Shown: piece after piece, positions 93 through 20,960 of the stretch
Numbering within the stretch: position 1 is the first letter of the stretch
Layout of the letters: each line of letters opens with the position of its first letter
Source: a virus
IMG/VR virus record: IMGVR_UViG_3300047354_000437
Location: 1-20,960 of that record
DNA length: 20,960 bases
Strand: one strand, 5' to 3'
Translations under genes and position numbers: made by a program
The notes under the pieces: generated by a model
The model's database searches: none
What the model was told of the DNA's origin: nothing
What the model saw: only the letters and a program-made list of their open reading frames with translations

Positions 93-1163
93 ATGCCAAG
101 ATTAAGTTTATGGAATCCGACAAAAACAAATGACTACAGTTTCATTGATAGAGTTGTGGGTGAGCATATCTTTGCGGGTGGTACTGGTGTACATATACAC
201 AAATATATGGGTATTCAGGACACACCAAACGAGAACGATCCTACTAGACCAAGCAGTGGTTCAAGTGCTAATAGTGAAGTTTTTATACAAGATCTATTAT
301 TTTTAGAAAACAGAGATAGAAAATATAGCGAAGACATATATGAATTAAGGGGCCAATATAACTTAGGCGATAATGATGCATTTGATTTAACACAATTTGG
401 AATGTTTTTAGCAAACGACACATTGTTTATGAACTTCCATACTGAAAGCATGGTAGATGCAGTAGGCAGACGTTTAATGCCAGGAGATGTTTTAGAACTT
501 CCTCATTTACGTGATGATTTACTTTTAGGTAGTGATGAAGCAATAAACAGATTTTATGTAGTTACAGATGCTAGTAGGCCTGCAGAAGGTTACGACCCAC
601 GTTGGTGGTCACATTTATGGAGAGTCAAACTAGGTCCTATAACAGATTCACAAGAGTACAGAGATATACTTGGTACTGGTGAGGAAGAAGGCGATCTAAG
701 AAACTTAATTAGTACATACGCAAATGAAATAAAAATTAGTGATGCTATATTAGAACAAGCGGCACGTGATGTTCCTTTTGATCCACAATATAGAAGAACA
801 GGTCATCTTTACATGGATGATTCCGTACCAGATAAACCAGCACCAGGATTAGACTTTGGTGGTGCAGATGGTAATCCAGTAAATGGTTCTAGCATAGTAG
901 GAAGTGGAGCAACATTCCCATTAAATGGCACAGTTGATGGAGACTTTTATTTAAGAACAGACTTTAGTCCGCACAGACTATTTAAAAAATCAGGTACACG
1001 TTGGATAAATGTAGGATCTGATATGACAGGATCTTGGAGTGCGGCAAACAGAATACTAAAAGGATTTATAAATAACGATTCAACATTTACAAGCGACAAT
1101 GGAGAAACAATGCAAGAGAAGGTTGGTTTAAGTAAACTTGTAAAGCCTAAAACGGATAATTAA
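93..1163 (+). CDS. gp14: T4 gp14-like neck protein
   Basis: This is probably the head-completion/neck protein that closes the portal vertex and joins head to tail in T4-like phages. The first ~220 residues carry the family pattern: a ring of hydrophobic/acidic blocks (DRKYSEDIYELRG, FDLTQFGMFLANDTLFMNFH, RRLMPGDVLELPHLRDD) followed by a region ending WRVKLGPITDSQEYRDIL. T4 gp14 is 256 aa. The extra ~110 residues here form a C-terminal extension with a short beta-rich block (DGDFYLRTDF, then GTRWINVG) of a kind seen in phage fibre and decoration proteins. The start at 93 is 5 nt after a late promoter octamer and has no SD. Its stop is one base before the next ATG (TAAAATG), so translation is probably coupled. 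The assignment rests on recognised motifs, not an alignment. Confidence 0.75.
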   Translation: MPRLSLWNPTKTNDYSFIDRVVGEHIFAGGTGVHIHKYMGIQDTPNENDPTRPSSGSSANSEVFIQDLLFLENRDRKYSEDIYELRGQYNLGDNDAFDLTQFGMFLANDTLFMNFHTESMVDAVGRRLMPGDVLELPHLRDDLLLGSDEAINRFYVVTDASRPAEGYDPRWWSHLWRVKLGPITDSQEYRDILGTGEEEGDLRNLISTYANEIKISDAILEQAARDVPFDPQYRRTGHLYMDDSVPDKPAPGLDFGGADGNPVNGSSIVGSGATFPLNGTVDGDFYLRTDFSPHRLFKKSGTRWINVGSDMTGSWSAANRILKGFINNDSTFTSDNGETMQEKVGLSKLVKPKTDN

Positions 1164-1164
1164 A

Positions 1165-1500
1165 ATGAAATTTAATGAAATAAAAATATTACATGAGAAT
1201 CAAAAAGTAATTGATAAATTAGAAGATAAAAAATCCGATTTAGAATTGGCTTTAAGTTCTGCTAGAGATATTACTAAAAATATTAAGTATGTTGATACTC
1301 ACGTTGAAATAGTTAGTCAACTAGGAACACTTGCTGAAGAGAATGGTTTGGAACTAGACAGTTATGATGAGAATTCAGTTTTCCAAGCAAAGAATAAATT
1401 AGAGTCTGCTATATATCAACTAGAAGAAGTTTTTGAAGATGCAATTCGTGATGTTTCAAACAAAATAGACGAATTAGAAATGGAGATGGAAGGCTACTAA
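1165..1500 (+). CDS. Small coiled-coil protein between gp14 and gp15
   Basis: This 111-aa acidic protein has no signal peptide or membrane segment and almost no Cys or aromatic clusters. Residues ~5-55 and ~75-108 are heptad-like helices rich in Glu, Lys, Leu and Ile (for example the C-terminal run VSNKIDELEMEME), so an antiparallel helical hairpin or coiled-coil oligomer is likely. It lies in a TAAAATG-coupled series between two neck genes (one base from each neighbour), which suggests a structural or assembly role such as a neck accessory or chaperone. I do not recognise a family. The coupling and strand make the ORF itself secure. Confidence 0.75.
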   Translation: MKFNEIKILHENQKVIDKLEDKKSDLELALSSARDITKNIKYVDTHVEIVSQLGTLAEENGLELDSYDENSVFQAKNKLESAIYQLEEVFEDAIRDVSNKIDELEMEMEGY

Positions 1501-1501
1501 A

Positions 1502-2854
1502 ATGGCAGGAAAAAACTTAGACTATTGGTATGACGAGCAGATAAAAAGATATCTTATACAGATTATTCGTATCTTTTCAAATTTTCAGACACGAGAGTAC
1601 ACTAAAAGCGGTGTAAAATATAATCGTGTACCTGCAAGATATGGTGATTCAAACAGAATGGTTGCTAGTATATTGCGTAACGGTTCAGAAAATGTTATTA
1701 ATAGTGCGCCTTTTATAAGTGTTACTATACAGAGTTTACAGCCTGCAAGAGACAGAACACATGAACCATTTCTGGTAGACACTACTCAGGTTGCAGAAAG
1801 AGAATTCGATAGAGAAACACAGTCATATCAAAATGAACAAGGTAACTTATTTACCACACAAAGATATATGCCAGTACCATATAACATGACTATACAAATG
1901 GACTTATGGTCAAACAATACAGATACTAAATTACAAGTGTTAGAACAAATTTTTGTTTTATTTAATCCTAGCATTCAGTTACAATCAAATAGTAATCCTT
2001 TAGACTGGACTAGTGTGTTTGAAGTTGAGCTTACAGATATTGCATGGAGTAACAGAAGTGTTCCAGTTGGTACTGAAGACACGATAGATATTTCAACACT
2101 TACATTTGCTGTACCTATTTGGATTAGTCCACCAGCAAAAATTAAAAAGCAATCTATCATACAAAGGATTATAGCAAATATACATAGTGTAAGCAGTATA
2201 TCAGATTTAGGTTATGACGAAGACTACGCAGACTTTTTTGGTGATATAGAAGATACTGCGGAGGTAGTAGTTACACCAGGTATGTATAGTGTAAGAGTAA
2301 GTGGTGCATCAGCAGTATTATTAAATGAACAAGGCATAGAAGTACCCTGGACTGACATTACAGATATGCAAGGCGATTTAAGAACTACAAGTTTATTAAA
2401 ATTAAATACAAGTAACGATACAGATAATTTCCTGGGAGAAGTTATTGGTACAGTATCAGTTGACGCAACCACAAATTCAAATTTAATTTTTAATTTAGAT
2501 ACAGATACTTTACCAACAGACACAATAAATGATGTTGATAAAATTATAGACCCTAGAGGCAATTATCCAGGTGACGGCACATTGGCCGCTTCTGCAAATG
2601 GTCAAAGATATCTTATTACAGAAACACTTACAGCATCTGGTTATACTAATTGGAATATAGATGCATCAGAGAACGACATTATAGAATATAATGGTAGTGC
2701 TTGGGTAGTATCCTTTGATGCTAGTTCACAAGTGGGCAATACACATTATATGCACAATACATTTACATCCAAACAATATCAATGGACTGGAACTCAGTGG
2801 ATAAGTAGTTATGAGGGAGAATACAAACCAGGATATTGGAGACTTGTTTTATAA
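1502..2854 (+). CDS. gp15: T4 gp15-like tail completion / sheath stabiliser protein
   Basis: In T4, gp15 forms the hexameric ring that caps the tail tube and sheath and docks the tail to the neck. The N-terminal ~230 residues fit that family: a start like FxxxxxRYLIQIIRIFSNFQ, then the YNRVPARYGD block, then PYNMTIQMDLWSNN leading to QVLEQIFVLFNPSIQLQ, and finally the SPPAKIKKQSIIQRIIA segment. T4 gp15 is 272 aa. Here about 200 residues are added: a Thr/Asp-rich linker (~240-340) and a beta-rich module with repeated aromatic/Gly blocks (ENDIIEYNGSAWVVSF; KQYQWTGTQWISSY) like a fibre tip or carbohydrate-binding module. It is coupled to the upstream coiled-coil gene, and its TAA directly abuts the ATG of the Nudix gene. 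Confidence 0.75.
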   Translation: MAGKNLDYWYDEQIKRYLIQIIRIFSNFQTREYTKSGVKYNRVPARYGDSNRMVASILRNGSENVINSAPFISVTIQSLQPARDRTHEPFLVDTTQVAEREFDRETQSYQNEQGNLFTTQRYMPVPYNMTIQMDLWSNNTDTKLQVLEQIFVLFNPSIQLQSNSNPLDWTSVFEVELTDIAWSNRSVPVGTEDTIDISTLTFAVPIWISPPAKIKKQSIIQRIIANIHSVSSISDLGYDEDYADFFGDIEDTAEVVVTPGMYSVRVSGASAVLLNEQGIEVPWTDITDMQGDLRTTSLLKLNTSNDTDNFLGEVIGTVSVDATTNSNLIFNLDTDTLPTDTINDVDKIIDPRGNYPGDGTLAASANGQRYLITETLTASGYTNWNIDASENDIIEYNGSAWVVSFDASSQVGNTHYMHNTFTSKQYQWTGTQWISSYEGEYKPGYWRLVL

Positions 2855-3283
2855 ATGAATACCACGGCGGCTGGAGTAGTTTTCCTAGCCAAAGACACAG
2901 GCAGATGCATGTTGCAACTCAGAGAAGGCAACAAAAGATTTAATCATACTTGGGGTTTTTGGGGAGGCATGATGGAGAAAGGTGAAACTCCTTACAACTG
3001 TATTAAACGTGAGTTAGAAGAAGAGATTGGATTTGTTCCAGAACTGCAAAAATTAAATCCTATAGACGTATACCAAAGCAAAGATCAAAATTTTTATTAC
3101 TACAGTTTTGTATATGTGGTAGATAAAGAATTCCAACCACCAAAATTAAATGGAGAAAGTGCCGGATACGCCTGGGTAGACATAGGTCAATGGCCCAAAC
3201 CATTGCACAATGGTGCCAAAATTACATTAAGTAAGAATGGTGGCACACAAAAACTGCACACTATACTTAAAATAAATTCCTGA
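2855..3283 (+). CDS. Nudix hydrolase
   Basis: Nudix enzymes cleave nucleoside diphosphates linked to another group, using Mg/Mn held by the Nudix-box glutamates. The box Gx5Ex7REUxEExGU is complete at residues 38-60: G38, E44, R52-E53, E56-E57, G59-F60. The 142-aa length is normal for a single-domain enzyme. The substrate cannot be read from the sequence; phage relatives act on ADP-ribose, dinucleoside polyphosphates, oxidised dNTPs or capped RNA ends. The ATG follows the gp15 stop with no gap, so it is translated in the neck/tail late operon rather than with nucleotide metabolism genes, which is odd for a housekeeping-type pyrophosphatase. Its TGA overlaps the next late promoter. Confidence 0.88.
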   Translation: MNTTAAGVVFLAKDTGRCMLQLREGNKRFNHTWGFWGGMMEKGETPYNCIKRELEEEIGFVPELQKLNPIDVYQSKDQNFYYYSFVYVVDKEFQPPKLNGESAGYAWVDIGQWPKPLHNGAKITLSKNGGTQKLHTILKINS

Positions 3284-3289
3284 TAAATA
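3282..3289 (+). promoter_or_regulatory. T4-type late promoter (GATAAATA), 210-aa gene
   Basis: GATAAATA overlaps the last bases of the Nudix gene stop (TGATAAATA) and ends 6 nt before the ATG at 3296. There is no SD in the intervening TTTCAT. This is the second case in which the predicted start point falls on or within 1-2 nt of the start codon. Confidence 0.65.
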
Positions 3290-3295
3290 TTTCAT

Positions 3296-3928
3296 ATGAG
3301 CAAAGGCGAAATTATCGATTTTGTTATTTTGCGGATAACTACCGAATTAGACAAGTTTCAAAGACAAAAAACAATTCCACATACATTACTAGAAGGCGCA
3401 ATAGAAATAGACGAAATAAAGGATGTCTATTATGAAAAGTTATCACCAAAGTATCAGAAAATATTCAATAGACTTCTAAAAGAGTATCACCAGAATATTG
3501 GCAAAAATATCGAGTCCCTAAAAACAGCAATGAAAAAAGACTATGCTAGAGTTGTTAATAATATGTCTACTGAGCATGAAAGTTTTAGATTTAAGGAAGT
3601 AATGAATTCCTATCGACCAGGTATAAATCCTGTAAGAGCTTTATACTATCAATCACGTGATGTAACTAGGCGTTACAATCCTGAAAATCCATTCCATTAT
3701 TGGTTAATTGATTTAGTTGAAGATACTGAATTTAATAATATAATTTTAGATGCTTTAGCAAAAGATGTTAGAAAACTTGAACGTATAATTAAAAGATATT
3801 ACTTTCCATTAGTAAATCACGGTGATGGAATACCGTTAGAACTTTTTCATGCTAAACAGCAATTAAAAGATTTTAAACACTATTACTTATTTTTTAGAGG
3901 AATCAAAGAGTTTCATCCAGACGAATAA
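3296..3928 (+). CDS. Unrecognised 210-aa protein, helical and basic
   Basis: I do not recognise this family. It is a soluble, mostly helical protein, rich in Lys, Arg, Tyr and Phe, with no signal peptide, membrane segment or cysteine. There is a conserved-looking core around residues ~100-150 (SYRPGINPVRALYY, RRYNPENPFHYWLIDLVED). It has its own late promoter 6 nt upstream, so it is likely made late with the structural proteins. Its TAA (3926-3928) touches the stop of the convergent cyclase gene (3929-3931) with no bases between them. It could be a minor virion, assembly or DNA-binding protein; nothing in the sequence decides. Confidence 0.75.
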   Translation: MSKGEIIDFVILRITTELDKFQRQKTIPHTLLEGAIEIDEIKDVYYEKLSPKYQKIFNRLLKEYHQNIGKNIESLKTAMKKDYARVVNNMSTEHESFRFKEVMNSYRPGINPVRALYYQSRDVTRRYNPENPFHYWLIDLVEDTEFNNIILDALAKDVRKLERIIKRYYFPLVNHGDGIPLELFHAKQQLKDFKHYYLFFRGIKEFHPDE

Positions 3929-5998
3929 TTACTTAGATGTTTTACGTTCTATTCCGTCCCAATCTCCTACAGGCATAGGTTGTTTAATTCTTTCTGCATA
4001 AAGATCTGCTAGAGTATTGTTCCACTTATGATCTTTAATTATCTCTATTTGATGTGAACACTCTGCCCATGCCCTGTTTTGATAACTATCAACCATTCTG
4101 TTTACTACTCTTGCATATTTGTGATCATTTAGTATAGTATAAATTGTTACAGGATCAGTTTGTCCTTTTACTGCTATTTTATCCAGCATAGTTAAATTTT
4201 CTGGAGTGCTAATCTGTTTTAGTGTATGTTCTGTAAACATAAAGAATACACCGTACTCTTTTGTTTGTGCTTCTAGTCTCGCCGCTAAATTAACACTATC
4301 ACCTAAAACAGTATAATCAAAACGTTGGTTACTACCCATATTACCTACTACAGCATCTCCTGTATTAATACCTATACCAACACCTAACTCCATGAGTCCG
4401 TCTTCTTTAAGTTCTTTATTAAGATTTTTTAGTTCAACTTCCATTTCCTGTGCTGTTTCTATTGCCAACTGAGCATGATTGTCTACATCAAGTGGAGCAT
4501 TCCATATTGCCATTAAGGCATCGCCTATATACTTGTCTATTGTTCCTTCTTTACGCATAACTAAATCAGTCATTGGTGTCATATATCTATTAATAAGATT
4601 GCCCAAACCTTGTGGGTCTGTTTTAAACTGTTCCGATATCGGAGTAAATCCACGAATGTCTGAGAACAAGTATGTCATTGTTCTTGTGTCGCCACCTAAA
4701 CGTAATAAACTTGGATCTTTCTGTAACTTCTTAACCATTGCTGGTGCCAAGTAATGCTCAAATTGTTTTTTAATTTGTTCACGTAATTTAAACTGTTTGT
4801 AAAAGTTATTAAATGCCGCCTGTGTGAATACTAAAAAGCCACTTAATACAGGGAAAGACGCATCTAATAATACTAACTGGCTTGTATATAGATGTACACT
4901 ATAATACCCTATTCCGCCCAAGATAAGCAACGATACTGGCGCCGTTAGTAGTAAAGGGAGTCTATATACTGCTATTGCTACTAGAACCATTATCAGAAGT
5001 GCTGTCAGAAGCTCATAGAACGCGGCTGTTTGACTTCGTGTTATGTTACTGCCACTTATAAAGTTCTGTAGCATATGAGCTTGTATCTCTTGTGGATATA
5101 AGTTTCCACGTGGCGTTGGTACAGGGTTTGCTATACCCTCTGCTGTTACGCCTACTATAACCATTTTACCTGCTAAATCTGGTATGCTGTCTGCACCTGT
5201 ATACTCTATAGTTTCAAAACTATTATTAAATCGTATATATGCTGTACCATCTGGCTGTGTTACTATTGGTTCAACTCCTTTAACAGCAACCTCTTGTATA
5301 CCTATTTCACTGGTCTTAACTATATAACTTTTTTGCCCTCTGCTTACCCTAAGCATTTCAACTGCAAAACTAGGATAAATTCTGTCCTCTACAGTTATTG
5401 CTAATGGATAAGTCCTTGTTTGATTATCTGGTTGTGGGGCAGAAGCATTTACACCTTTACCATTCACTACAGACTCTAATATAGATATATTTGTAACTAA
5501 GTTGGGCCATTTAAGTAAATAGTCTTTTGCAGGTACTGGTCCTACTGTTCCTGTGCCTATATGAGGTCCTGATGTTTTTATACCTCTAACACTAGGTGTT
5601 TGACTTAGAACATTAAAATTAATAGGGTTACGCCTTGCTCCTTGTACATTTACTTTATTTTGTTCTAAGTATTGTCCAAATACTTCATCTCCACCAAAGC
5701 GATCTGATTCTGGAAACATTATTGTCCAACCTAAAACACCACTATTTTTACTAGCAACATCTACAACTAACTGAGCATAATATTGTCTGGGAAAAGGATA
5801 TTGCCCAAAGGTTGCTAACGTGTTTTCACCAAAGTTTAATAATACAATATCATTACTAGGTAAAATTTCGTCTAATTGCTGATAACTATCAAATACTTGT
5901 CCACGTAAACTTTGTACTGGAGTTGGATCTGCAACTCTGAGTACAAGTAAAAGTACAATAGATAGAGCTATCGCATAGCCACTGTATAACCATTTCAT
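3929..5998 (-). CDS. CHASE2-domain class III adenylate cyclase
   Basis: This is a membrane receptor that should turn ATP into cAMP in response to a periplasmic signal. Layout: TM at ~8-22, a CHASE2-type extracytoplasmic sensor at ~25-320, three TM segments at ~327-395, a linker helix, then the cyclase domain at ~435-600. The catalytic set is complete: metal-binding D447 (FSDIRGFT) and D493 (IGDALMAIW), adenine-selecting K489 and D567, transition-state N570 and R574. The K/D pair argues for ATP rather than GTP. A ~85-residue tail follows. The ATG is 5 nt after a late promoter octamer, with no SD. A receptor cyclase is unusual cargo for a lytic phage. It sits near the csg-like operon, and I recall CHASE2 cyclases often lying beside FecR-domain genes in bacteria, so the two may be linked; that is inference. 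Confidence 0.92.
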   Translation of the reverse strand: MKWLYSGYAIALSIVLLLVLRVADPTPVQSLRGQVFDSYQQLDEILPSNDIVLLNFGENTLATFGQYPFPRQYYAQLVVDVASKNSGVLGWTIMFPESDRFGGDEVFGQYLEQNKVNVQGARRNPINFNVLSQTPSVRGIKTSGPHIGTGTVGPVPAKDYLLKWPNLVTNISILESVVNGKGVNASAPQPDNQTRTYPLAITVEDRIYPSFAVEMLRVSRGQKSYIVKTSEIGIQEVAVKGVEPIVTQPDGTAYIRFNNSFETIEYTGADSIPDLAGKMVIVGVTAEGIANPVPTPRGNLYPQEIQAHMLQNFISGSNITRSQTAAFYELLTALLIMVLVAIAVYRLPLLLTAPVSLLILGGIGYYSVHLYTSQLVLLDASFPVLSGFLVFTQAAFNNFYKQFKLREQIKKQFEHYLAPAMVKKLQKDPSLLRLGGDTRTMTYLFSDIRGFTPISEQFKTDPQGLGNLINRYMTPMTDLVMRKEGTIDKYIGDALMAIWNAPLDVDNHAQLAIETAQEMEVELKNLNKELKEDGLMELGVGIGINTGDAVVGNMGSNQRFDYTVLGDSVNLAARLEAQTKEYGVFFMFTEHTLKQISTPENLTMLDKIAVKGQTDPVTIYTILNDHKYARVVNRMVDSYQNRAWAECSHQIEIIKDHKWNNTLADLYAERIKQPMPVGDWDGIERKTSK

Positions 5999-6003
5999 AC
6001 CGA

Positions 6004-6011
6004 TATTTATC
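6004..6011 (-). promoter_or_regulatory. T4-type late promoter (GATAAATA), cyclase gene
   Basis: The complement of 6004-6011 reads GATAAATA. It lies inside the palindrome CGATAAATATCG-like sequence at 6001-6012 and ends 5 nt before the cyclase ATG (5996-5998). The motif overlaps the end of the upstream 155-aa gene. No SD is present. Confidence 0.65.
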
Positions 6012-6474
6012 GTATTTTATTGCAATTTTGCTTGGCGTCATTTAGTAGTCTAAAGTTATTTACTACCACAAACATATATAGCATATTGGTGCTATTTAAT
6101 TCTTCTGGAGTAAGTTTTTTATAACCATCGTTATATAACAATGATGGAGCCAGTATTAAAGTTTTTGTTGCAACTATCCTAGAATCACTTGGACGTTCTG
6201 TGTATAATGGATTTATTTCTCTTATACAATCATACTTTATTGCTCGTGATGTTGAGTAAGCATCTAATATTTGGAGTGTAAAAAATGTAACCCATTGAAC
6301 TTTTGTTATTTTTTGATCCATATCAAACTTAAATGTGCTACTTGGAAGTTGTTGGCACTCTGGTGGATTATTATCGCAGTAATACGGGTCTAGTGGAAGA
6401 TTATAAGTGAGATCTAATGACATTGCATTCAAAGAAAAAAGCGACAATAAAAATATTATTACCGCTTTGATCAT
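6007..6474 (-). CDS. Small exported/membrane protein, DUF5658-like region
   Basis: This 155-aa protein starts with a typical signal peptide (hydrophobic ~3-15, probable cut after SLNAMS or nearby). The N-terminal periplasmic stretch has YCDNNPPEC. A hydrophobic segment (~57-72) leads to a TLQILDAYSTS...REINPLY pattern, resembling the D...T...E-NP layout of DUF5658-type small membrane proteins, and then a further hydrophobic helix. I cannot give a function. The start is 3 nt after the stop of the -1 frame of the upstream lipoprotein gene, so frameshifting there could couple to its initiation. Its SD is weak. The YCxxNPxEC motif is shared with the -1 frame extension of its neighbour. Confidence 0.7.
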   Translation of the reverse strand: MIKAVIIFLLSLFSLNAMSLDLTYNLPLDPYYCDNNPPECQQLPSSTFKFDMDQKITKVQWVTFFTLQILDAYSTSRAIKYDCIREINPLYTERPSDSRIVATKTLILAPSLLYNDGYKKLTPEELNSTNMLYMFVVVNNFRLLNDAKQNCNKIR

Positions 6475-6477
6475 TGT

Positions 6478-6606
6478 TTACTCGCACTCTTTAGGATTTT
6501 CAGAACAATATTTTTCAATTTTGTCCATATTTTCAAAAAGTAACTGCACCAACTCCTTGGTACTTAATTCCTTCTTACCATTTATCCTATCTAAGAAGGT
6601 TAGTCC
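6478..6606 (-). other. -1 frame extension of the lipoprotein (42 codons)
   Basis: Reading on in the -1 frame after the AAG of the slippery site gives GGA CTA ACC and 39 more codons to TAA 6478-6480. The segment ends EKYCSENPKECE and looks like real protein (Lys/Glu/Leu rich, no rare runs). It has no ATG except one 16 codons from its end, and no usable SD, so independent initiation is unlikely. The fusion product would be 146 aa (104 + 42). A simple indel in the A6 run, natural or from sequencing, would give the same picture. Confidence 0.55.
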
Positions 6607-6612
6607 TTTTTT
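6570..6612 (-). promoter_or_regulatory. Programmed -1 frameshift signal (slippery site + hairpin)
   Basis: On the - strand, A_AAA_AAG (6612-6606) is in the correct phase of the lipoprotein frame (CCA AAA AAG GAC TAA). After a 6-nt spacer (6605-6600), CCTTCTTA (6599-6592) and TAAGAAGG (6577-6570) form a perfect 8-bp stem with a 14-nt loop. Heptamer, 5-9 nt spacer and stem-loop are the three standard parts of a bacterial/phage -1 site. There is no T-tract after the stem, so it is not a normal terminator. Confidence 0.6.
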
Positions 6613-6917
6613 GGTGCTTCTTCTTCGTCTTGTAGCTCGTCTGTTTGTCTATCTACTTCATCGGAAACTGTTTTCACAACACCTTTTCCGAGGTCTGCTC
6701 CAGCAACAACAACAGTCTGTGCTGTATCAATTGCTAAAGTTCCAACAGATACAACATCATCAGCAACTGCTGTAGTTATTGTAGCCGCTCCGCCAACTAC
6801 TGCATCAACAGTACCTGTGACAACTTCTGTTCCTGCATTCCAAACACCCCCAACTGAGGCACAACTTGTCATGAGAAAAAGACTAAACATACCGAAGACA
6901 GTCGTTAAATTCTTCAT
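6600..6917 (-). CDS. Small lipoprotein (105 aa; candidate frameshift gene)
   Basis: The N-terminus is a lipoprotein signal: MKNLTT, hydrophobic core, lipobox LMTSC with C19 as the lipidated residue. The mature part is Val/Ala/Thr/Gly-rich with an amphipathic quasi-repeat (VVTGTVDAVVGGAATITTAVADDVVSVG and onward, about 11 residues per period), then an acidic tail ending APKKD. The start is well supported by AAGGAG 8 nt upstream. The leader holds a 9-bp hairpin and a late promoter. The last codons contain A_AAA_AAG, and a -1 shift would extend it by 42 residues. A short lipoprotein among tiny membrane proteins could be an outer-membrane lysis component (o-spanin type), but there is no motif that proves it. 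Confidence 0.82.
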   Translation of the reverse strand: MKNLTTVFGMFSLFLMTSCASVGGVWNAGTEVVTGTVDAVVGGAATITTAVADDVVSVGTLAIDTAQTVVVAGADLGKGVVKTVSDEVDRQTDELQDEEEAPKKD

Positions 6918-6940
6918 ACCTTATCTCCTTATATATAAGT

Positions 6941-6966
6941 GTTATAAAGCAACCTGCCTTTATAAC
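6941..6966 (-). repeat. Perfect inverted repeat / 5' mRNA hairpin
   Basis: GTTATAAAG and CTTTATAAC are perfect 9-bp arms around an 8-nt loop. On the - strand the hairpin begins about 1 nt after the start point predicted from the late octamer at 6973-6980, and it ends 10 nt before the AAGGAG of the lipoprotein gene. It would sit at the very 5' end of the mRNA, a position that usually protects against decay. No T-tract follows it. Confidence 0.7.
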
Positions 6967-6972
6967 AGTAGT

Positions 6973-6980
6973 TATTTATC
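6973..6980 (-). promoter_or_regulatory. T4-type late promoter (GATAAATA), lipoprotein gene
   Basis: The complement reads GATAAATA. The predicted start point is near 6967, giving a ~50-nt leader with a hairpin and a good SD before the ATG at 6917. A separate inverted repeat lies just upstream at 6987-7002. Confidence 0.65.
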
Positions 6981-6986
6981 ACTTTA

Positions 6987-7002
6987 GTATAGTAAACTAT
7001 AC
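6987..7002. repeat. Short inverted repeat upstream of the late promoter
   Basis: GTATAGT and ACTATAC are perfect 7-bp arms separated by AA, flanked by imperfect TTTAG/CCTAAA. It lies between the stop of the 101-aa gene and the late octamer. It could be an operator, or the remains of a terminator for the membrane-protein genes, but there is no T-run. Weak evidence. Confidence 0.35.
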
Positions 7003-7011
7003 CTAAATATG

Positions 7012-7317
7012 TTAAATTCTAAGATCGTTTAAAGGCTCTGCACCTAAACTGTGCATATCAGCATACCACAATTCTGTTAATAAAATTTCTCTTGTACTTT
7101 CGTTTTCTGTGGCGTGTATCAACATTATTAAATTGTCTCTGTTTGATTGTTCTATTGTATAAATTAATTCTACCCATTTATATAATAATAAAAACATTAG
7201 AGGAACACAAATCATTTTTAATAGAAGCAGTGGATAAAAATATGCAAGAATAAAAAAATGACCACCTAATAAAGTGTAGGCGTATATTTTTAAACTTTTA
7301 GTGTATTCCGATATCAT
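7012..7317 (-). CDS. Small two-TM membrane protein, paralogue of the next gene upstream
   Basis: This 101-aa protein opens MISEYTKSLKIY and has two hydrophobic segments (~12-30 and ~31-50) followed by a ~50-residue polar tail with acidic residues. The N-terminal half lines up with the neighbouring 96-aa protein (MISKFTNSLRVY, then a His at the start of TM1, then a turn with Pro), so the pair looks like a tandem duplication. The start overlaps the upstream gene by 20 nt. Size and topology would fit a holin or antiholin, but there is no family signature, and that role is a guess. Confidence 0.7.
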   Translation of the reverse strand: MISEYTKSLKIYAYTLLGGHFFILAYFYPLLLLKMICVPLMFLLLYKWVELIYTIEQSNRDNLIMLIHATENESTREILLTELWYADMHSLGAEPLNDLRI

Positions 7318-7588
7318 AATCTATTTCTAAAGGACTATCTACTACATAAAATGACAAGTCTGGTGTCATAAACATATTATTACTTAAGAACATTGCTTGG
7401 TCTGAAAAACCTGATTCTTTATGTACTTGGTGTATAATAGACATCACTATGCCTATATAAGCACATGGAATAAAAAATACAAATAATATTAAAGATGTTG
7501 TAGGGAACATTGTTATAAACAAAAGTATATGACCCATTGCGATTGTGCCGCCGTACACTCGTAAACTATTAGTAAATTTACTGATCAC
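7298..7588 (-). CDS. Small two-TM membrane protein (GTG start)
   Basis: This 96-aa protein begins at GTG (7586-7588), reading MISKFTNSLRVYGG. Two TM segments at ~12-28 and ~30-51 are followed by a soluble tail ending DIGIH. It overlaps the preceding 59-aa ORF by 11 nt and the following 101-aa gene by 20 nt, as in a translationally coupled trio. It is similar to the 101-aa protein in the first ~55 residues but not in the tail. Two related, differently tailed small membrane proteins in a row is a layout seen for holin/antiholin pairs; not proven. Confidence 0.7.
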   Translation of the reverse strand: MISKFTNSLRVYGGTIAMGHILLFITMFPTTSLILFVFFIPCAYIGIVMSIIHQVHKESGFSDQAMFLSNNMFMTPDLSFYVVDSPLEIDYDIGIH

Positions 7589-7757
7589 GACTATCTAACT
7601 CTTCCTTTATGAGAAATCTCACATATTCGTCTGCATTAGTTAAATTATAGTCTGATACTATTGCAAATATTAAAGTTATAAAGACAAGTGTCATTACAAA
7701 CGATAGATATAAATTTATTCCGGCTGTGATCTTCAGCCACTTTATCATGTGTTTCAT
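7578..7757 (-). CDS. Tiny single-TM protein (59 aa)
   Basis: A short ORF starts MKHMIKWLKITAG. One membrane segment (~14-35, rich in Leu, Ile, Phe and Val) is flanked by a basic N-terminus and an acidic C-terminal tail (KEELDSRDQ). The charge pattern predicts N-in. It overlaps the next gene by 11 nt. A textbook sigma70-like promoter lies so close that the 5' UTR would be about 4 nt. M4 at 7748 is an alternative start. I do not recognise a family; it is probably real because of the promoter and the coupled overlap. Confidence 0.65.
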   Translation of the reverse strand: MKHMIKWLKITAGINLYLSFVMTLVFITLIFAIVSDYNLTNADEYVRFLIKEELDSRDQ

Positions 7758-7767
7758 ATGTTTAAGT

Positions 7768-7796
7768 AGTATAACAAAAAGACTACGTTATGTCAA
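7768..7796 (-). promoter_or_regulatory. Sigma70-like promoter (TTGACA-N17-TATACT)
   Basis: On the - strand TTGACA (7796-7791) is separated by exactly 17 nt from TATACT (7773-7768). The predicted start is about 7761 (an A), 4 nt before the ATG at 7757. It is the only consensus host-type promoter I see in the window and implies that the small membrane-protein trio can be made by unmodified host RNA polymerase, before the late genes around it. Confidence 0.75.
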
Positions 7797-7803
7797 CAAT
7801 ATA

Positions 7804-8115
7804 TTACGATAACTTTTTTTGAATCCATTTGAAACTTGCATATATAGTCAAACCATAGACTGCAAATATTGTGAGAGGTATTGCCAGATAAGCAATAGTC
7901 CAAAAGTCTAAAAATAGTAATTGTGTTGTAAAGTCTAATACTGCTTCAGCATCTCCCATAGGTTCCAGTTGTAATGTTTCTGTGCTGTATTCCATGTCAT
8001 ATGGTTCTAGCATTTCGTTGAAACTTTCTTCTGTTACACATACCATACCTTCAGGACATTCAAATCCTCCTAATTCATATGGTAGTGGGTTTCCTAAGTC
8101 ATCTAAACTTTGCAT
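7804..8115 (-). CDS. Small membrane protein ending the curli-like operon
   Basis: This 103-aa protein has no signal peptide. A ~65-residue acidic N-terminal part contains a Cys pair (FECPEGMVC), followed by one long hydrophobic segment (~68-93) and a basic end (KWIQKKLS), so the likely topology is N-terminus outside, C-terminus in the cytoplasm. The start overlaps the stop of the second curlin-like gene (TAATG), so it belongs to the same operon. It could be an inner-membrane partner or chaperone for the exported proteins. I do not recognise a family. The Cys pair facing the periplasm matches the other proteins of this operon. Confidence 0.72.
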   Translation of the reverse strand: MQSLDDLGNPLPYELGGFECPEGMVCVTEESFNEMLEPYDMEYSTETLQLEPMGDAEAVLDFTTQLLFLDFWTIAYLAIPLTIFAVYGLTIYASFKWIQKKLS

Positions 8116-9005
8116 TAGTTATTCTGATTCACTGTAACTGAACAGCCTCCTCCATTATTACATATACCTGTAAGAGTATATGTTACTGCTGATGTTGAAA
8201 CATTTTGATTTAAATCAAATGTGTAAGCACCTGTACCAAATGTTAAATCAACTGTTGCAGAAGCATAATTTGTACCACGTTGATTAATATCAACACTATG
8301 ACCATTGCCGTCTAAAACAATGTCTGCCCATTTTTTACCACCACTGCCTTTTTGGTCTAAAATTACATCATTGTGATTGCCTGTGACTTCTATAAATCCG
8401 TCGTGTCCTGCCTTGCCTCTTTGTCTATGCCAAACATCATTATAGTCGCCATCAATTATATTTGCTAAGTGATGACTGTCTCCATTTCCACTATCTCGGT
8501 TAGTGTCTGTTTGAAAACTAGAAAACTCATTGTAGTCGCCTGTTACAGTCCAATATGCTTCGTGATCGCCTGTTTCATCTGTGTCAATGGAGCCGTCATG
8601 GTGCATACCTTGGAATACAAGTCCTGTATTATTTGTTCCAAATCCTGATAATCTAACAAAATTATCATTACCGCCGCCACCTTGGAATACTTTTAAAGTA
8701 TTAAGACCGCCACTGGTCCAATTACCTTCAAACAGATTACTAGTACCTGTTTGCATAATATGTAAAGTATTGTCGTCTCCTGCAAACTGGCTTGAGGTTG
8801 ATATACCTGTGACTGTGTTATCAGTACCTGCTTGTAGTATGTCTAGTTCTAAATTATCACCACTTATGTTACCTAAATATACTTCATTGTCATCTGCATT
8901 TGCTGATAAGGGTATTAATAAAAACATACCCAATATGATATATCCTAATACTAGTAGTGGAGTATCTTTGGGTCTCATTTCACTAAGTTGCTTATCTATG
9001 CTCAT
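8115..9005 (-). CDS. Curlin-repeat-like exported protein 2
   Basis: This is a candidate curli-type fibre subunit. The signal peptide spans ~10-37, with a cut after SANA leaving DDNEVYLG. The mature protein has repeated beta-strand units of the curlin kind (hydrophobic-polar alternation with QxGxxN turns): DILQAGTDNTVTG, HIMQTGTSNLFEG, VDINQRGTNYA, plus degenerate GDYN/GNHN turns, about ten in all. The canonical unit is Sx5QxGxxNxAx3Q; here several Gln and Asn positions remain. The C-terminus has a Cys pair (ICNNGGGC), which E. coli CsgA and CsgB lack. The mature N-terminus is clearly related to the 267-aa curlin-like protein upstream. A late octamer ends 5 nt before the ATG. The role as CsgG cargo is inferred from operon context. 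Confidence 0.7.
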   Translation of the reverse strand: MSIDKQLSEMRPKDTPLLVLGYIILGMFLLIPLSANADDNEVYLGNISGDNLELDILQAGTDNTVTGISTSSQFAGDDNTLHIMQTGTSNLFEGNWTSGGLNTLKVFQGGGGNDNFVRLSGFGTNNTGLVFQGMHHDGSIDTDETGDHEAYWTVTGDYNEFSSFQTDTNRDSGNGDSHHLANIIDGDYNDVWHRQRGKAGHDGFIEVTGNHNDVILDQKGSGGKKWADIVLDGNGHSVDINQRGTNYASATVDLTFGTGAYTFDLNQNVSTSAVTYTLTGICNNGGGCSVTVNQNN

Positions 9006-9010
9006 ATTAC

Positions 9011-9018
9011 TATTTATT
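9011..9018 (-). promoter_or_regulatory. T4-type late promoter (AATAAATA), curlin-like gene 2
   Basis: The complement reads AATAAATA, a NATAAATA variant. It overlaps the stop of the FecR-domain gene and ends 5 nt before the ATG at 9005 (AATAAATAGTAATATG, almost the same string as GATAAATAGTAACATG before the gp14-like gene). It would allow extra, internal transcription of the second curlin-like gene. Confidence 0.55.
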
Positions 9019-10186
9019 ACTCTTGTGTGATACTAATGAATATTCCTTCACATTCATTAAGGCACATTATAGTATCTCCTAAATCTTTATCACTGACTTC
9101 TATTTGTCCTGAATTGCCTCTTTTTATTTTTAAACTAACATAGTTTGTACCTTGCCTTAAAAAGAATACTTTACCATCTACATCAGGTACAATATTAAAC
9201 TGATTATCAGGCTGTAATCCAAATGCTCTGTCTACTAATCTATCACCTGCTGTGGCTTCTTCTCGTGTACCTAAAGTATCTGCTTCTTCCATAACCTCTA
9301 ATAAATCCCTTAAGAAGTCAACATCTAAAAAGTTTATATCTAATTCTGAAAATTCTAATTCACGTTCTGCTTGTTCGTCTAATCCTTCAATTTCTAAAAG
9401 GTCTATATCTAATCCGTTAAAGTCTAACAAGCCACCATCTCCTTTTAATTGATCTGCTTGTTCTTCTTCTGCCTGTACTATTTCGTCAGGCTTACTTATA
9501 ATAAACATATTGTCTATCTGATTTAAATCTAAGTCTACTAATGTTACAGGTTGTGTTGGTGCTTGTTCAAATGTACTAACCATCACTGCCTGAAAGGCTT
9601 CTTCTAATGTTACTGTTCCGCCATCATTAGTAACTGTTATACTACCACTGGGCCTACACCCTTCCTCTAATTTTACTTTGTCATCGCAATTAGCATCTGG
9701 TAATAATATAACTAAACTTCTACCCAATTCGTCAACTGTTGTAGTAAAATCTGTTCCCCTAATACCTATTGTGGCAGTAGGAGTTTGTATAACTATATTT
9801 TCTTTTGGTACTAAACCTAACCCGCCTGTGGCAAACCGTGCAGTCCCTTGCACAAAGTTCATTGCCATTTTACTTTTACTTGGGTCTGGGTCATAAACAT
9901 ACTCGTCTATTTCCATATATGTGTGTTCTGTTAAACTGACCTGTGTTTCATCAACAAACTGTATTTTAAGCCTGCCGTTCTCTGTTTCAACTTCGTCGAA
10001 ACTTACTATGTCTGTTTCTAAGTTTGCTGTTAGTTCTTCACCTGAAAGGCGAAATATATTTCCAGCCTTTCCACTTTGCTCAATTATGCCGCCAATTGAA
10101 TCATCGGCGGCATAAACATTTCCGATTGCAATTAGTAAAACTGCGACTAAAAGATTAGTCGGTTTGTTTAATACTAACTGAAGCAT
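9017..10186 (-). CDS. Exported FecR-domain protein
   Basis: Signal peptide 1-26 (cut after VYA). Residues ~50-160 form a FecR domain (PF04773 type), shown by DETQVSLTEHTYMEIDEYVYDP, NFVQGTARFATGG and TPTATIGIRGTDF (135-147). The middle (~205-305) is very acidic and Leu/Asp/Glu-rich, with irregular repeats (LDIDLLEIEGLDE, LDINFLDVDFL). The C-terminus is a small beta region with a Cys pair (CLNEC); another pair lies at NCDDKVKLEEGC. Free-standing FecR-domain proteins act in the periplasm as sensors or scaffolds; this one has no TM anchor and no sigma-factor partner here. The start lies 32 nt inside the upstream curlin-like gene, with no SD, so coupling is expected. The position between two curlin-like genes suggests a periplasmic assembly or surface component. 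Confidence 0.85.
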   Translation of the reverse strand: MLQLVLNKPTNLLVAVLLIAIGNVYAADDSIGGIIEQSGKAGNIFRLSGEELTANLETDIVSFDEVETENGRLKIQFVDETQVSLTEHTYMEIDEYVYDPDPSKSKMAMNFVQGTARFATGGLGLVPKENIVIQTPTATIGIRGTDFTTTVDELGRSLVILLPDANCDDKVKLEEGCRPSGSITVTNDGGTVTLEEAFQAVMVSTFEQAPTQPVTLVDLDLNQIDNMFIISKPDEIVQAEEEQADQLKGDGGLLDFNGLDIDLLEIEGLDEQAERELEFSELDINFLDVDFLRDLLEVMEEADTLGTREEATAGDRLVDRAFGLQPDNQFNIVPDVDGKVFFLRQGTNYVSLKIKRGNSGQIEVSDKDLGDTIMCLNECEGIFISITQE

Positions 10187-10958
10187 TTTCGCTGTCTAAC
10201 TCGACATTAATAATACCGTGACATGCAGGTGAACAGGTTGTAGTCATATTCTGAGTGAACTGGAAATCTCCATCACTACCTGTTAAGTCTACTGTTAAAC
10301 TGTGATCACTGTTACCACTTTGATTAGTAGCAAAAGCATTGTCATCACCTGTAATATCAAAGTTCCATACAACGTTGTCTGCATCAACTAAGATACCTAC
10401 CATTGCACTTGAACCTGTACAGTTTGTTCCACAAGAGTCACCATCTCCAGCCGCCGCCCAAACTTTACTATTTGTAAAACTAGTGTCGAAATCATTTCTG
10501 TCACCTAGTATTACTAAATCAAAGTTTAAACCTTCTGCACTGGCATTTTCACCTATACCTATGTCAAATAAGTTACCGTCACCCTGAATGCTTGAAAGCA
10601 TATCAGCATTATCGGCACTATTATCCCCTACGTCAAAATCAAAGATGTTGCCATCTCCTAGATTGTAAAAATCTAACACAGTTGATCCTGAACCGTCCAA
10701 AACAAGTGCACCAAAGAAATCATTGTTGTCACCGTCTTGTATAAGGTCTAATATTATGTTGTTACCAGTAAGTGTTAAGTCTGCTGTTGCACCGCTATTA
10801 CCAGACACAGTATTACCTGTACCTGCTTGTAGAATTGTTAATGTAAGGTTATCACCTTCCTGATCTATTAACACTTCGTTGTCATCAGCAATTACTGGGT
10901 TAGACATAAGTCCTATTAATGCGAAGACACCAACCGCTAAGTTTTTAATTATCTTCAT
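10155..10958 (-). CDS. Curlin-repeat-like exported protein 1
   Basis: I start this gene at the ATG at 10958 rather than 30 nt upstream, because GGAG lies 7 nt before it and it gives a clean signal peptide (MKIIKNLAVGVFALIG..., cut after VIA). The 267-aa protein then reads DDNEVLIDQEGDN and has curlin-like units: LTILQAGTGNTVSG, LDLIQDGDNNDFFG, SSIQGDGNLFDIG, VILGDRNDF, then QTD at the end. Mature N-terminal residues match curlin-like protein 2. Cys pairs (CGTNC, CSPAC) are unusual for curlins. The protein is very acidic (Asp-rich), so beta-helix folding may be calcium-aided. It overlaps csgG by 14 nt. The fibre subunit role is inferred from repeats plus context. Confidence 0.72.
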   Translation of the reverse strand: MKIIKNLAVGVFALIGLMSNPVIADDNEVLIDQEGDNLTLTILQAGTGNTVSGNSGATADLTLTGNNIILDLIQDGDNNDFFGALVLDGSGSTVLDFYNLGDGNIFDFDVGDNSADNADMLSSIQGDGNLFDIGIGENASAEGLNFDLVILGDRNDFDTSFTNSKVWAAAGDGDSCGTNCTGSSAMVGILVDADNVVWNFDITGDDNAFATNQSGNSDHSLTVDLTGSDGDFQFTQNMTTTCSPACHGIINVELDSENASVSIKQTD

Positions 10959-11982
10959 TATTTTTCTCCAATATTGGTTTATTTTCATTCTTTAAAAGAA
11001 TGCGTTTCCACAAAGGTAAATCATTTGGATCTTTAGAGTACTGTTCTTCATCTTCCTCGTCAGTAAGATTGCCTGCTTCTTTAAGACTCATCCAGTATGC
11101 TTGTTCTTGTTCTGCAACTTGTTGGTCCCAATCCTCAGGATAAACAATCTTCCAATATCCTCTTTCATCACCTTGCCTAATAAGTTCTAACACCGCGGCC
11201 TCGATCGCTGATCGGACTGCAAATGTTACACTTTCATTCTGTGTCATACCGCTTTCAAGTTCTAACAAACGAGTATCCATATCTACAAATCTAAATACGT
11301 CTCCTGCTTGTCCTGAACTTAAAACAGTTTTTTGTGTTTGCACGTTTAATATAACTTCACCTGTAAGTGTGCTTACAGCACGAAGTGATATTACTATGCT
11401 ATCTCTTCGATATTGGTTTGTTGTCCCAATACCCAAATATCTTGCCCCTGTACCTCCTGATTCAATATTAGTGTCGTATCCTATAACACCACCTTCTAAT
11501 ATCATACCAGCAAATAACATTGGCTGTAGTTCTTGAAACTCCTCTAGTCCGTTCTGCTTGGCAGTTTCGGATCTAGTACTTCGAACTATTTGTCTTTCTC
11601 TAACTAAGTTATCTAAACCTAGTCCTCTTTCAACTACTCTAAACCAAGTTCCTTTGGCATCACTACCTGAACCTGCCGCCTTTAGAGCGTCTACTAATAA
11701 ACTTTTTGCATCTTGCGTAACTGCTGTACTAAAACTAGCAACTCCGTCTTGACTTTTTCTTTGGCCTGTGCCATCTCCAAATTGATATATAGCAACCACA
11801 GGCATAACTTCTGCCGGTGGCAAATATCTAAGTTTTCTATATGTGGGTAGTTCAACTTTCTTAGGTTCTTCAACACACTCAAGAAAGTCTGTTTGGCACA
11901 TCTCATCGCCCGGAATAGCGATACTGGCACAACCACTTAAATATAAAACACCTATTAGTGCTATTAAAATATTTTTAGTCAT
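10945..11982 (-). CDS. csgG: CsgG-family outer-membrane curli secretion lipoprotein
   Basis: CsgG forms the nonameric outer-membrane pore through which curli subunits leave the cell. The lipobox is LSGC with C18 lipidated. The CsgG domain runs from ~55 to ~280 and matches the E. coli protein closely in key places: ASFSTAVTQDA, VVERGLGLDNLVRERQIVR, GGVIGYDTN, GGTGARYLGIGTTNQYRRD, SAIEAAVLELIRQGDERGYW. The constriction loop differs: E. coli has Tyr, Asn, Phe (mature Y51, N55, F56); here the Phe remains (F84) but Ser replaces Asn, no Tyr is present and the loop is one residue longer. A ~60-residue charged tail is extra. A strong AGGTGG SD precedes the TAATG overlap with csgF. Very confident on family; the phage role is inferred. 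Confidence 0.95.
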   Translation of the reverse strand: MTKNILIALIGVLYLSGCASIAIPGDEMCQTDFLECVEEPKKVELPTYRKLRYLPPAEVMPVVAIYQFGDGTGQRKSQDGVASFSTAVTQDAKSLLVDALKAAGSGSDAKGTWFRVVERGLGLDNLVRERQIVRSTRSETAKQNGLEEFQELQPMLFAGMILEGGVIGYDTNIESGGTGARYLGIGTTNQYRRDSIVISLRAVSTLTGEVILNVQTQKTVLSSGQAGDVFRFVDMDTRLLELESGMTQNESVTFAVRSAIEAAVLELIRQGDERGYWKIVYPEDWDQQVAEQEQAYWMSLKEAGNLTDEEDEEQYSKDPNDLPLWKRILLKNENKPILEKNNEDN

Positions 11983-12473
11983 TAACCACCTGCAATTTGG
12001 CCAATACCAATTGGTATTTCTATTGTTGTTATTGTTCCATCTGGGTCTACAATAGTAAGTTTAATTACTTCTAACCCATCTGCATTTGTAATAACTTCAT
12101 AGGTAACTGTATTACCTTCAATATCAAATGCTCCACTTGTTGATCCAGTACAACTAATTACGGTTGCAGGATCACAAAACATACTATCAACTAATCCTTT
12201 AGAAATTTGTGAATAAATCCTACTCTCCAAATTTCTAATAAATTTATTAATCGTGCTATTTTGATCTGCTCGTTCAGCCGCCTTTAAGGCCGCTTCTATA
12301 TCTGCTTTAATTTTATCCTTACGTGACTTTTCCTGGTTCTCAATAGTCAAATAATGAGCACCTGTTCCTTGTCCGCTAAAACTAGGATTCTTAAATTTAA
12401 ATTTAATTTCATCTGCTTGTAGACTAAAACTAAAAAGTCCTAGTAAAAAACATACTGGTAATATTATTTTCAT
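11982..12473 (-). CDS. csgF: CsgF-like curli assembly factor
   Basis: CsgF plugs into the CsgG pore and guides the nucleator in curli assembly. The signal peptide (cut after LQA) leaves DEIKFKFKNPSFSG, matching the FxFxNPxFxG peptide by which E. coli CsgF inserts into CsgG. The helical middle (~50-95, KSRKDKIKADIEAALKAAERAD, then RNLESRIYSQISKGL) corresponds to the CsgF helix but is longer. The C-terminal beta part (TYEVITNADGLEVIKLTIVDPDGTITTIEIP) matches the CsgF tail. Length is 163 aa against 138 in E. coli. Two Cys (MFCDPATVISC) are extra. The order csgF then csgG is as in E. coli (csgDEFG). ATGA overlap upstream and TAATG overlap downstream show tight coupling. Confidence 0.93.
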   Translation of the reverse strand: MKIILPVCFLLGLFSFSLQADEIKFKFKNPSFSGQGTGAHYLTIENQEKSRKDKIKADIEAALKAAERADQNSTINKFIRNLESRIYSQISKGLVDSMFCDPATVISCTGSTSGAFDIEGNTVTYEVITNADGLEVIKLTIVDPDGTITTIEIPIGIGQIAGG

Positions 12474-12766
12474 TTCTTCTTCCCTTCCTGTTTTTCCAGA
12501 GCCTCTTTCATTTTATCTTGCTCCAGTATTTTTTGTGTTGCTTTGTATTCCAACACTACGTTTACTTTCTGTTGCAAACGTATCATATCCTGATCTAACA
12601 TACGAGTTTTATCTATAACTCTTATAAGTGCAAAATGCATTTCTTCTAATGCAGGATCTATATGTTCTCCAATAAAGTTCCATATAAAATATATAAAGTA
12701 ACCCAGTCCTACAGTCATTACAACTGGAAAACCAAATTCAGAAATTAATGCACCTACATCTTCCAT
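12470..12766 (-). CDS. Small single-TM protein, paralogue B
   Basis: This 98-aa protein starts MEDVGALISEFGFP and has one TM (~12-32), followed by a long charged helix with heptad character (~36-90) ending in Lys-rich EGKKK. This matches the layout of small phage proteins often called holin-like (BhlA/UviB/YvrJ type): short N-terminus out, one TM, cytoplasmic coiled coil. It is a clear tandem paralogue of the gene before it (both open MEDxxxLIxExGxP). The gene has TAATG overlap on its 5' side and ATGA overlap with csgF on its 3' side. I know similar proteins in marine T4-like phages only as hypotheticals. It could be a holin-like factor, or energy/anchor support for secretion. Confidence 0.7.
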   Translation of the reverse strand: MEDVGALISEFGFPVVMTVGLGYFIYFIWNFIGEHIDPALEEMHFALIRVIDKTRMLDQDMIRLQQKVNVVLEYKATQKILEQDKMKEALEKQEGKKK

Positions 12767-13062
12767 TAATCTCTCCTAGCATCTACTTTGCCATCTTCTA
12801 CAAAGTTTTCTGCTCTTGCTATACGTTCGATATCTGGTCTTAATTCCAAAGCACTACTCACCAGTAAATCAATTTTCATCATTTCATTACTCATGGTACT
12901 TGCCCTGGCTTCTAAACTTTTACAGAAAATGGTTAAGGTTTTAACCTGATCGACAATACCTTGCATTATCTGTTTAATAACTAAAAAGATAAAAAATCCC
13001 ATTGCCATACTTCCGGCGATGGGGGCTCCTACCTCCGCAATTAATTTAAAGATATCTTCCAT
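12766..13062 (-). CDS. Small single-TM protein, paralogue A (first gene of the operon)
   Basis: This 98-aa protein starts MEDIFKLIAEVGAP with one TM (~13-32), then a helical, Met/Lys/Asp-rich region (~40-90). It shows the same start, TM position and length as the next gene, so they arose by duplication. AAGGAG lies 7 nt upstream of the ATG. It is the promoter-proximal gene of the curli-like operon, ~30 nt after the late octamer at 13093-13100. The function is unknown. The holin-like resemblance is by size, charge pattern and the MED start, not by a diagnostic residue. Confidence 0.72.
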   Translation of the reverse strand: MEDIFKLIAEVGAPIAGSMAMGFFIFLVIKQIMQGIVDQVKTLTIFCKSLEARASTMSNEMMKIDLLVSSALELRPDIERIARAENFVEDGKVDARRD

Positions 13063-17712: not shown

Positions 17713-17754
17713 TTTTTACCCCTAATATATCTTATTAGCAAAATTTATATAATG

Positions 17755-20291: not shown

Positions 20292-20960
20292 TTATATAGT
20301 TTTAAGTGGTTTTGATAGTTCTTCCCAACTAGTTTCGAAATCTGAGTCACCATCTGCATAACCCATTACACCTAATTTTTCATATTCAGGTATAAGTTCG
20401 TCTGTTAGTAGTCCTATTCTTTTTAGGTTGGGCATTATTCGACTGAATAATACATCTTGAAATTGTGTTTGAAATATATGTTCTTTCTGATATGCTTCTG
20501 TTTGTTCTATGTCCATGCCATATTTTTCCCAAACATCATATGCTCTTAATCTGTTTCTGCTCACAGTACAGGCCTCTAAGGCAAATTGAGCTCTGTCTTG
20601 GCGTTCTTGTTCTGTAAGTGTTTTTACATATTCTTCTAAGTAGTTTACACCAAAGGTAACATGTCTGGCTTCGTCTCTGATAATATAATCTAACATTTCA
20701 TATAGTACAGGATCACTTGTTCCTGTTTTGGCGGCATTAAAGGCCGCTAATGCTAGACCTTCTATAACAATTTGCATACCAATAAACTTTAAATCCCATC
20801 GTGGGTCTGTAAGTATTTTGTCTAATAGTCCTTTAAGTGCTGTGCCAATAGGCCATGTACGTTTAATTCTGGTTTGTAAGTATTTGTTAAAGGCTTCTAC
20901 GTGTCTTGCTTCATCAAATGTTTGTGAGGCCGCATACAGTTTAGCATTAAATGTAGGAGC
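20292..20960 (-). CDS. Ferritin-like diiron-carboxylate protein (partial, 5' end missing)
   Basis: The - frame is open to the right edge. It continues 61 residues beyond the internal Met at 20777, so 222 residues are visible and the true start lies outside. Two helices carry the same metal-binding signature: FDEARHVEAF (residues ~15-24 of the visible part) and RDEARHVTFG (~95-104), each with an ExxH pair, plus a Glu in IVIEGLALAAF between them. E...ExxH repeated on four helices is the classical diiron site of the ferritin/RNR-R2/AurF superfamily. The C-terminal ~70 residues are amphipathic and charged. It could be an oxygenase, N-oxygenase or hydroxylase acquired from a host; the substrate is unknown. 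It is followed directly by the fibre-cluster promoter. Confidence 0.8.
   Translation of the reverse strand, partial: APTFNAKLYAASQTFDEARHVEAFNKYLQTRIKRTWPIGTALKGLLDKILTDPRWDLKFIGMQIVIEGLALAAFNAAKTGTSDPVLYEMLDYIIRDEARHVTFGVNYLEEYVKTLTEQERQDRAQFALEACTVSRNRLRAYDVWEKYGMDIEQTEAYQKEHIFQTQFQDVLFSRIMPNLKRIGLLTDELIPEYEKLGVMGYADGDSDFETSWEELSKPLKTI

Follow-up and report, generated by a model that had tools for sequence, protein, structure and literature searches.

A CHASE2 receptor-type class III cyclase in the curli/FecR module of a predicted marine jumbo phage, and the apparent exchange of sensor and enzyme halves among its phage relatives

The window, that is, the whole stretch of DNA analyzed here, is a 20,960-base virus record from an uncultured marine giant phage. 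At positions 3929-5998 its (-) strand carries an intact open reading frame (ORF) with an ATG start, a real gene whose 689-residue product is a CHASE2 receptor-type class III nucleotide cyclase. Residues 15-341 (4976-5956, (-) strand) make up the periplasmic CHASE2 sensor (Pfam PF05226, E = 7.6e-32), and residues 440-622 match Guanylate_cyc (PF00211, E = 5.6e-20). In an AlphaFold model of the protein (pLDDT 86.7, pTM 0.63), a membrane helix at residues 7-23 precedes a periplasmic part of about 300 residues (24-325), three further membrane helices, of which the last comprises residues 381-413, and a cytosolic catalytic domain (residues 430-625; 4124-4711, (-) strand). Profile and model thus agree on the architecture of a CHASE2 receptor cyclase, with periplasmic CHASE2, membrane helices and cyclase in this order, and the full sensor and membrane segments that a first-pass annotation had read from the sequence are borne out, with four predicted membrane helices. 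A fold search fits the modeled catalytic domain to the structures of CyaC, Cya2 and CyaB (TMt 0.82-0.88), and no solved CHASE2 structure is among the fold matches listed for the cyclase model. CyaB of Pseudomonas aeruginosa and CyaC of Spirulina share the catalytic fold, and CyaB the K/T substrate pair as well, but both carry other sensors and neither is a phage gene. The late promoter assigned to the gene by the same annotation was not recovered, since no T4-type late promoter (TATAAATA-type site) was found upstream of the cyclase ORF; the sole well-placed site of this type on the (-) strand lies at 17749, 5' of the tail-fibre gene.

D447, K489, D493, N570 and R574 occupy the positions claimed for them in the first-pass annotation, where they line up with class III cyclases of solved structure. 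D567, which it had also counted as catalytic, was rejected as a catalytic or specificity residue: it is a conserved Asp nearby, and alignment with P. aeruginosa CyaB places T563, seven residues before the Asn, as the adenine partner of K489, in a class IIIb-like K/T pair. The window enzyme therefore has every residue expected of a class III adenylate cyclase (two metal-binding Asp, Lys with Thr, Ser or Asp, Asn and Arg), the complete set being D447 and D493 for metal, K489 and T563 for adenine and N570 and R574 for the transition state. From these residues the gene product is very probably an adenylate cyclase, and we are confident that the catalytic type it represents is an active adenylate cyclase. 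Among 221 full-length phage cyclases, three catalytic types can be told apart: A, that of the window (K/T, N), B (K/D, N replaced by S) and C (K/S, N). The metal, Lys and Arg sites are invariant in 221/221 sequences. In all 83 type B enzymes (e.g. L002), which retain the metal Asp, Lys and Arg residues, Ser replaces the transition-state Asn at window position 570, and Asp stands at adenine position 563. Median dN/dS lies at 0.07-0.08 in all three catalytic types and at 0.12-0.27 in the sensors; in the window's type, the low values of both parts (catalytic about 0.07, sensor 0.12) indicate purifying selection.

The cyclase gene closes a row of genes that all lie on the (-) strand. Two tandem 98-residue proteins with a single transmembrane segment and coiled coil (12470-13062), found before csgF in most phage modules, are followed by CsgF (11982-12473; PF10614, E = 4e-13), the outer-membrane curli pore CsgG (10945-11982; PF03783, E = 3.5e-46), a first curlin-repeat protein (10155-10988; PF07012 at E = 5e-4, just under the cut-off, in a conserved position), an exported FecR-domain protein (9017-10186; PF04773, E = 8e-11), a second curlin-repeat protein (8115-9005; PF07012, E = 2e-9), several small membrane protein or lipoprotein ORFs (6007-8115) and, last, the cyclase. 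Homologs of several of these small ORFs were found only in the jumbo lineage described below, among them those of a DUF5658-like membrane protein at 6007-6474 ((-) strand; E = 3e-4, below the cut-off). The distance of 1.8 kb between cyclase and csg-like operon given earlier holds only if the operon is taken to include the ORF at 7804-8115, which abuts the last curlin gene; measured from the end of that curlin gene, the distance is 2.1 kb. Histidine kinase(s) have been reported before csgF in podophages (PMC9599517); the tandem 98-residue proteins, which occupy that site, are far too short for one and have no match in Pfam or PADLOC. Where 6 kb or more of upstream DNA is available, 77/77 phage loci contain FecR and 76/77 CsgG, in a gene order that is fixed across unrelated phages, so that the proposed membership of the cyclase in one module with csg and FecR is upheld. 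At one locus (L101:6520-7626) the FecR gene lies on the opposite strand to the cyclase, unlike at nearly all others. A phage-encoded cAMP receptor was also considered and discarded, as a cyclic-nucleotide-binding (cNMP) protein (PF00027) was found in 0/14 phage records, several of them fragments.

The model of the FecR-domain protein opens with a signal-peptide-like helix (short and hydrophobic, residues 8-24) and continues into a beta domain at about residues 30-205, for the most part modeled with confidence; a linker of low confidence then leads to six short C-terminal strands. Residues 61-228 match PupR (6OVK, Z 15.7), and the N-terminal part fits 5IX9, the domain by which an antifreeze adhesin is anchored at the cell surface (Z 10.3 over 74 residues at 2.3 A), to which the sequence match is weak (E = 0.18). 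A tag of the form [VILAFT]x[VILF]x[QN], a pattern chosen after the sequences had been seen, occurs near the C-terminus of 109/113 FecR proteins and 206/221 curlins, against 58/2152 other ORFs. The FecR domain is shared with anti-sigma regulators such as FecR and PupR, but the phage protein differs from these in its predicted signal peptide, curlin-like tail and export; beyond the FecR domain it has no Pfam match that could represent an N-terminal cytoplasmic anti-sigma domain, and only the short hydrophobic helix precedes that domain. Judging by sequence and model, the product resembles a fibre-associated protein that is exported and perhaps retained in the pore more than it does an anti-sigma regulator.

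Convergent with the cyclase, a block of structural genes on the (+) strand (93-3928) encodes a virion protein, a gp15-like tail sheath stabilizer, a Nudix protein and a 210-residue protein. The stabilizer is closest to those of the jumbo phages PA5oct and Paride (39% identity), the order of structural protein, stabilizer, Nudix protein and protein of about 200 residues is the same as in Paride, and one relative (L034) lies on a contig of 250,519 bases. The backbone is neither that of a pelagimyophage nor that of an HTVC023P-type podophage, and on these gene comparisons we assign the window phage to an Arenbergviridae-like jumbo lineage, with PA5oct and Paride as relatives, that corresponds to no known pelagiphage type. 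The stabilizer, Nudix and 210-residue genes accompany the cyclase in 85/85 loci with the window's sensor type (S1, see below), always in the same place and in many samples, which confirms the presence of the gene in related phages and rules out chance as well as an assembly artefact or join. Farther along the (-) strand, the tail protein encoded at 17764-19194 contains an autoproteolytic domain, Peptidase_G2 (IMC; E = 6e-17), and lies beside a 1509-residue fibre gene, and a ferritin-like/AurF-like diiron protein with weak matches only (20292-20960) is cut by the window edge.

Modules with the order csgF-csgG-curlin-FecR-curlin-cyclase have been published for pelagiphages, and hence the basic association is not new (PMC9599517). 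That study, in which the word CHASE2 is absent, found two families of pelagiphages to carry curli, FecR and adenylate cyclase, built a cyclase tree, proposed an alphaproteobacterial origin with cross-family transfer and reported pelagiphage modules without a cyclase as well. HTVC008M and Melnitz carry the same row, with the cyclase last. The window module is like these in gene set and order, but it stands in an Arenbergviridae-like jumbo backbone rather than a pelagimyophage or podophage one and has small membrane genes inserted before the cyclase; its sensor is only about 30-32% identical to those of HTVC008M and Melnitz, and the catalytic types differ (A in the window, C in HTVC008M and B in Melnitz). 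As far as our searches reach, the jumbo lineage, the exchange of the enzyme half, the character of the FecR protein and the link to bacterial export appear to be new.

Comparison of the two halves of the 221 phage cyclases (sensor, residues 1-400; catalytic domain, residues 430-625) indicates that they do not share one history. The sensors form two main clusters, S0 (125 sequences) and S1 (85), and a few small ones, and they combine with the catalytic types as S0-C (76), S1-A (50), S0-B (48), S1-B (24), S1-C (11) and one S0 sensor with an A-like domain, in proportions that are not natural frequencies because the samples are the best 80 matches per query. L028 and L062 are 92% identical in the sensor and 46% in the catalytic half, and L155 and L139 are 35% identical in the sensor and 96% in the catalytic half; the DNA of the latter two matches over a 0.9-kb catalytic cassette, around which there are only short or weak matches. 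Likewise, catalytic identity between S1-B and S0-B enzymes reaches 91%, with sensors that are only 34% identical. In pairs of relatives identity changes sharply at residues ~403-413, where the last membrane helix ends, which places the putative recombination junction at 4760-4792 ((-) strand) in the window and makes the catalytic domain the exchanged part. The catalytic type changes six times on the sensor tree, and AU tests, run on quick trees with some long branches, reject a single type B clade on sensor data (p = 8e-5) and a single S1 clade on catalytic data (p = 3e-11). Of 3,160 bacterial pairs, 99.9% have a higher identity in the catalytic domain than in the sensor, a rule that the isolate genomes Melnitz and HTVC008M also break (54% in the sensor against 36% in the catalytic domain), so that an assembly-artefact origin of the mismatch can be discarded. 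On this sequence evidence, sensor and catalytic halves almost certainly recombine, and the exchange of the catalytic half between phages, unrelated families included, may alter the strength, regulation or nature of the output. A search for a bacterial donor of type B through 14 genomes of kin and 398 genomes drawn from the same phylum found none, the best matches being only 33-42% identical.

The neighboring genes can be compared with the two halves in the same way. FecR covaries with the sensor (rho 0.77) rather than with the catalytic half (0.18), and so does CsgG (0.64 versus 0.24), whereas the downstream structural genes of the jumbo lineage follow the catalytic half (rho 0.58-0.64). FecR was accordingly dropped as a specific sensor partner on covariation grounds: it follows the sensor barely more than CsgG does, and linkage is here indistinguishable from function, as physical linkage would account for the correlation no less well than a functional partnership.

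The kinship with bacterial receptor-type class III cyclases proposed in the first-pass annotation is confirmed by identities of about 30-38% to alphaproteobacterial CHASE2 cyclases of the kind of Sinorhizobium meliloti CyaD1, CyaD2 and CyaK, which present the same succession of CHASE2, transmembrane segments and class III cyclase. In the 80 nearest bacterial loci (L241-L320), which come nearly all from Alphaproteobacteria, many of them Bradyrhizobium, and are thus not independent, the suspected FecR-CHASE2 neighborhood does occur: a FecR ORF, often adhesin-sized, lies directly upstream of the cyclase in 23/80, an HlyD and ABC pair lies within 2.5 kb in 19, and FecR ORFs or type I secretion genes adjoin the cyclase in 42 of the 73 evaluable loci, two of which (L256 and L264) have the order FecR-ABC-HlyD-cyclase. 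In five marine loci (L274, L275, L281, L283 and L284), the cyclase gene overlaps or abuts a gene for an HlyD membrane-fusion protein with an N-terminal cNMP-binding domain, and one or two small cNMP proteins follow the cyclase; an ABC exporter also belongs to these operons (C39-like in the case of L274), and all but one of the five have a FecR ORF at a distance of about 6 kb, with RTX repeats in L274. Such an arrangement suggests that the cyclic nucleotide is placed to act on surface-protein export. The nearest homologs of the phage cyclase thus often belong to surface-protein export, like the phage gene with its curli, but they adjoin FecR ORFs, type I secretion genes and sometimes cNMP-binding proteins where the phage ones adjoin curli genes. 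Homologs of csgG or csgF were not found within 10 kb of any of the 80 bacterial cyclases, and the idea of a module taken as a whole from a bacterium is not supported by these loci. A literature search combining CHASE2, type I secretion, cNMP-binding and adhesin returned nothing; the bacterial neighborhoods, with FecR adhesin, type I secretion and cNMP-binding HlyD, point to a cAMP-based parallel to the way in which c-di-GMP controls giant adhesins.

The frequent association of the bacterial homologs with surface-protein export favors a receptor that reports on export, and we give an even chance to the reading in which the window enzyme is a receptor adenylate cyclase that reports how the curli/FecR surface structure encoded by the phage is exported and assembled. 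Located in the host periplasm, the CHASE2 domain would monitor the status of either the FecR-domain protein or the passage of curli through CsgG; the catalytic dimer would change in response, cAMP would be raised or lowered, and it would act on cyclic-nucleotide-binding proteins of the host, where we place the target because the related phage records searched carry no recognizable protein of that kind. The sensor would stay with its export module while the catalytic output is exchanged between phages. We infer enzyme activity, cAMP as the product, FecR or curlins as the input and a host receptor as the target. In favor of this reading are the catalytic residues, the fixed gene order, the dN/dS values, the bacterial link to FecR and type I secretion, the features of the FecR protein, the covariation of FecR and CsgG with the sensor (for which linkage is an equally good explanation) and the precedent of S. 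meliloti, in which CHASE2 cyclases answer a protein signal via the outer-membrane barrel NsrA (PMC13001267); against it stand the nearly half of bacterial relatives with no recognized FecR or type I secretion neighbor and the type B enzymes lacking the transition-state Asn. In relatives from unrelated phages the sensor half is retained and the enzyme half swapped, which suggests phage tinkering with a host second-messenger signal tied to surface export. If so, phages would steer host second-messenger signaling through a receptor tied to the export of surface fibres, and the natural recombinants allow a direct test of the input to CHASE2 domains and of the way in which these drive a cyclase.

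It is rather unlikely, though more plausible than the alternatives that follow, that the gene encodes a general host-takeover cyclase, the cAMP of which would redirect host metabolism or transcription via a CRP-like regulator independently of curli, the csg linkage being a matter of history. The active-site residues, the frequency of metabolic genes in phages and the catalytic exchange, which fits selection on output alone, are all in keeping with such a role, but a constitutive cyclase would need neither a large periplasmic sensor kept under purifying selection nor a fixed order with csg and FecR across unrelated phages. A variant of the export-reporting reading, quite unlikely in our judgment, is that the three catalytic types make different messages, type B (Asp563, Ser570) differing in product or activity from A and C, so that a single export-linked sensor would have its second messenger swapped to suit or evade the host.

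Published proposals that link phage curli to superinfection defence and sibling capture (PMC9599517, PMC7029224) or to lysis timing (PMC9004378) would agree with a signal in which cAMP, made upon a change in surface export, alters the host surface or the time of lysis; the Melnitz cultures showed no clumping under the conditions used (PMC9004378), and we hold this role to be decidedly improbable. A decoy or interfering enzyme that makes or mimics a cyclic nucleotide against a nucleotide-based, Pycsar-like defence is very improbable: the PADLOC PycC-type profile PDLC00734 does match the catalytic domain (E = 1.5e-29), and type B has its unusual Ser in place of Asn, but this is a class III cyclase profile that matches all three phage types, PADLOC found no effector among the five neighbors scanned, and the CHASE2 sensor and the K489/T563 pair fit an adenylate cyclase. 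Finally, a passenger gene with no present function, to which the pelagiphage modules that dispense with the cyclase might point, is scarcely credible in view of the dN/dS of 0.07-0.12 in the window's type and of the metal, Lys and Arg sites kept in every full-length copy.
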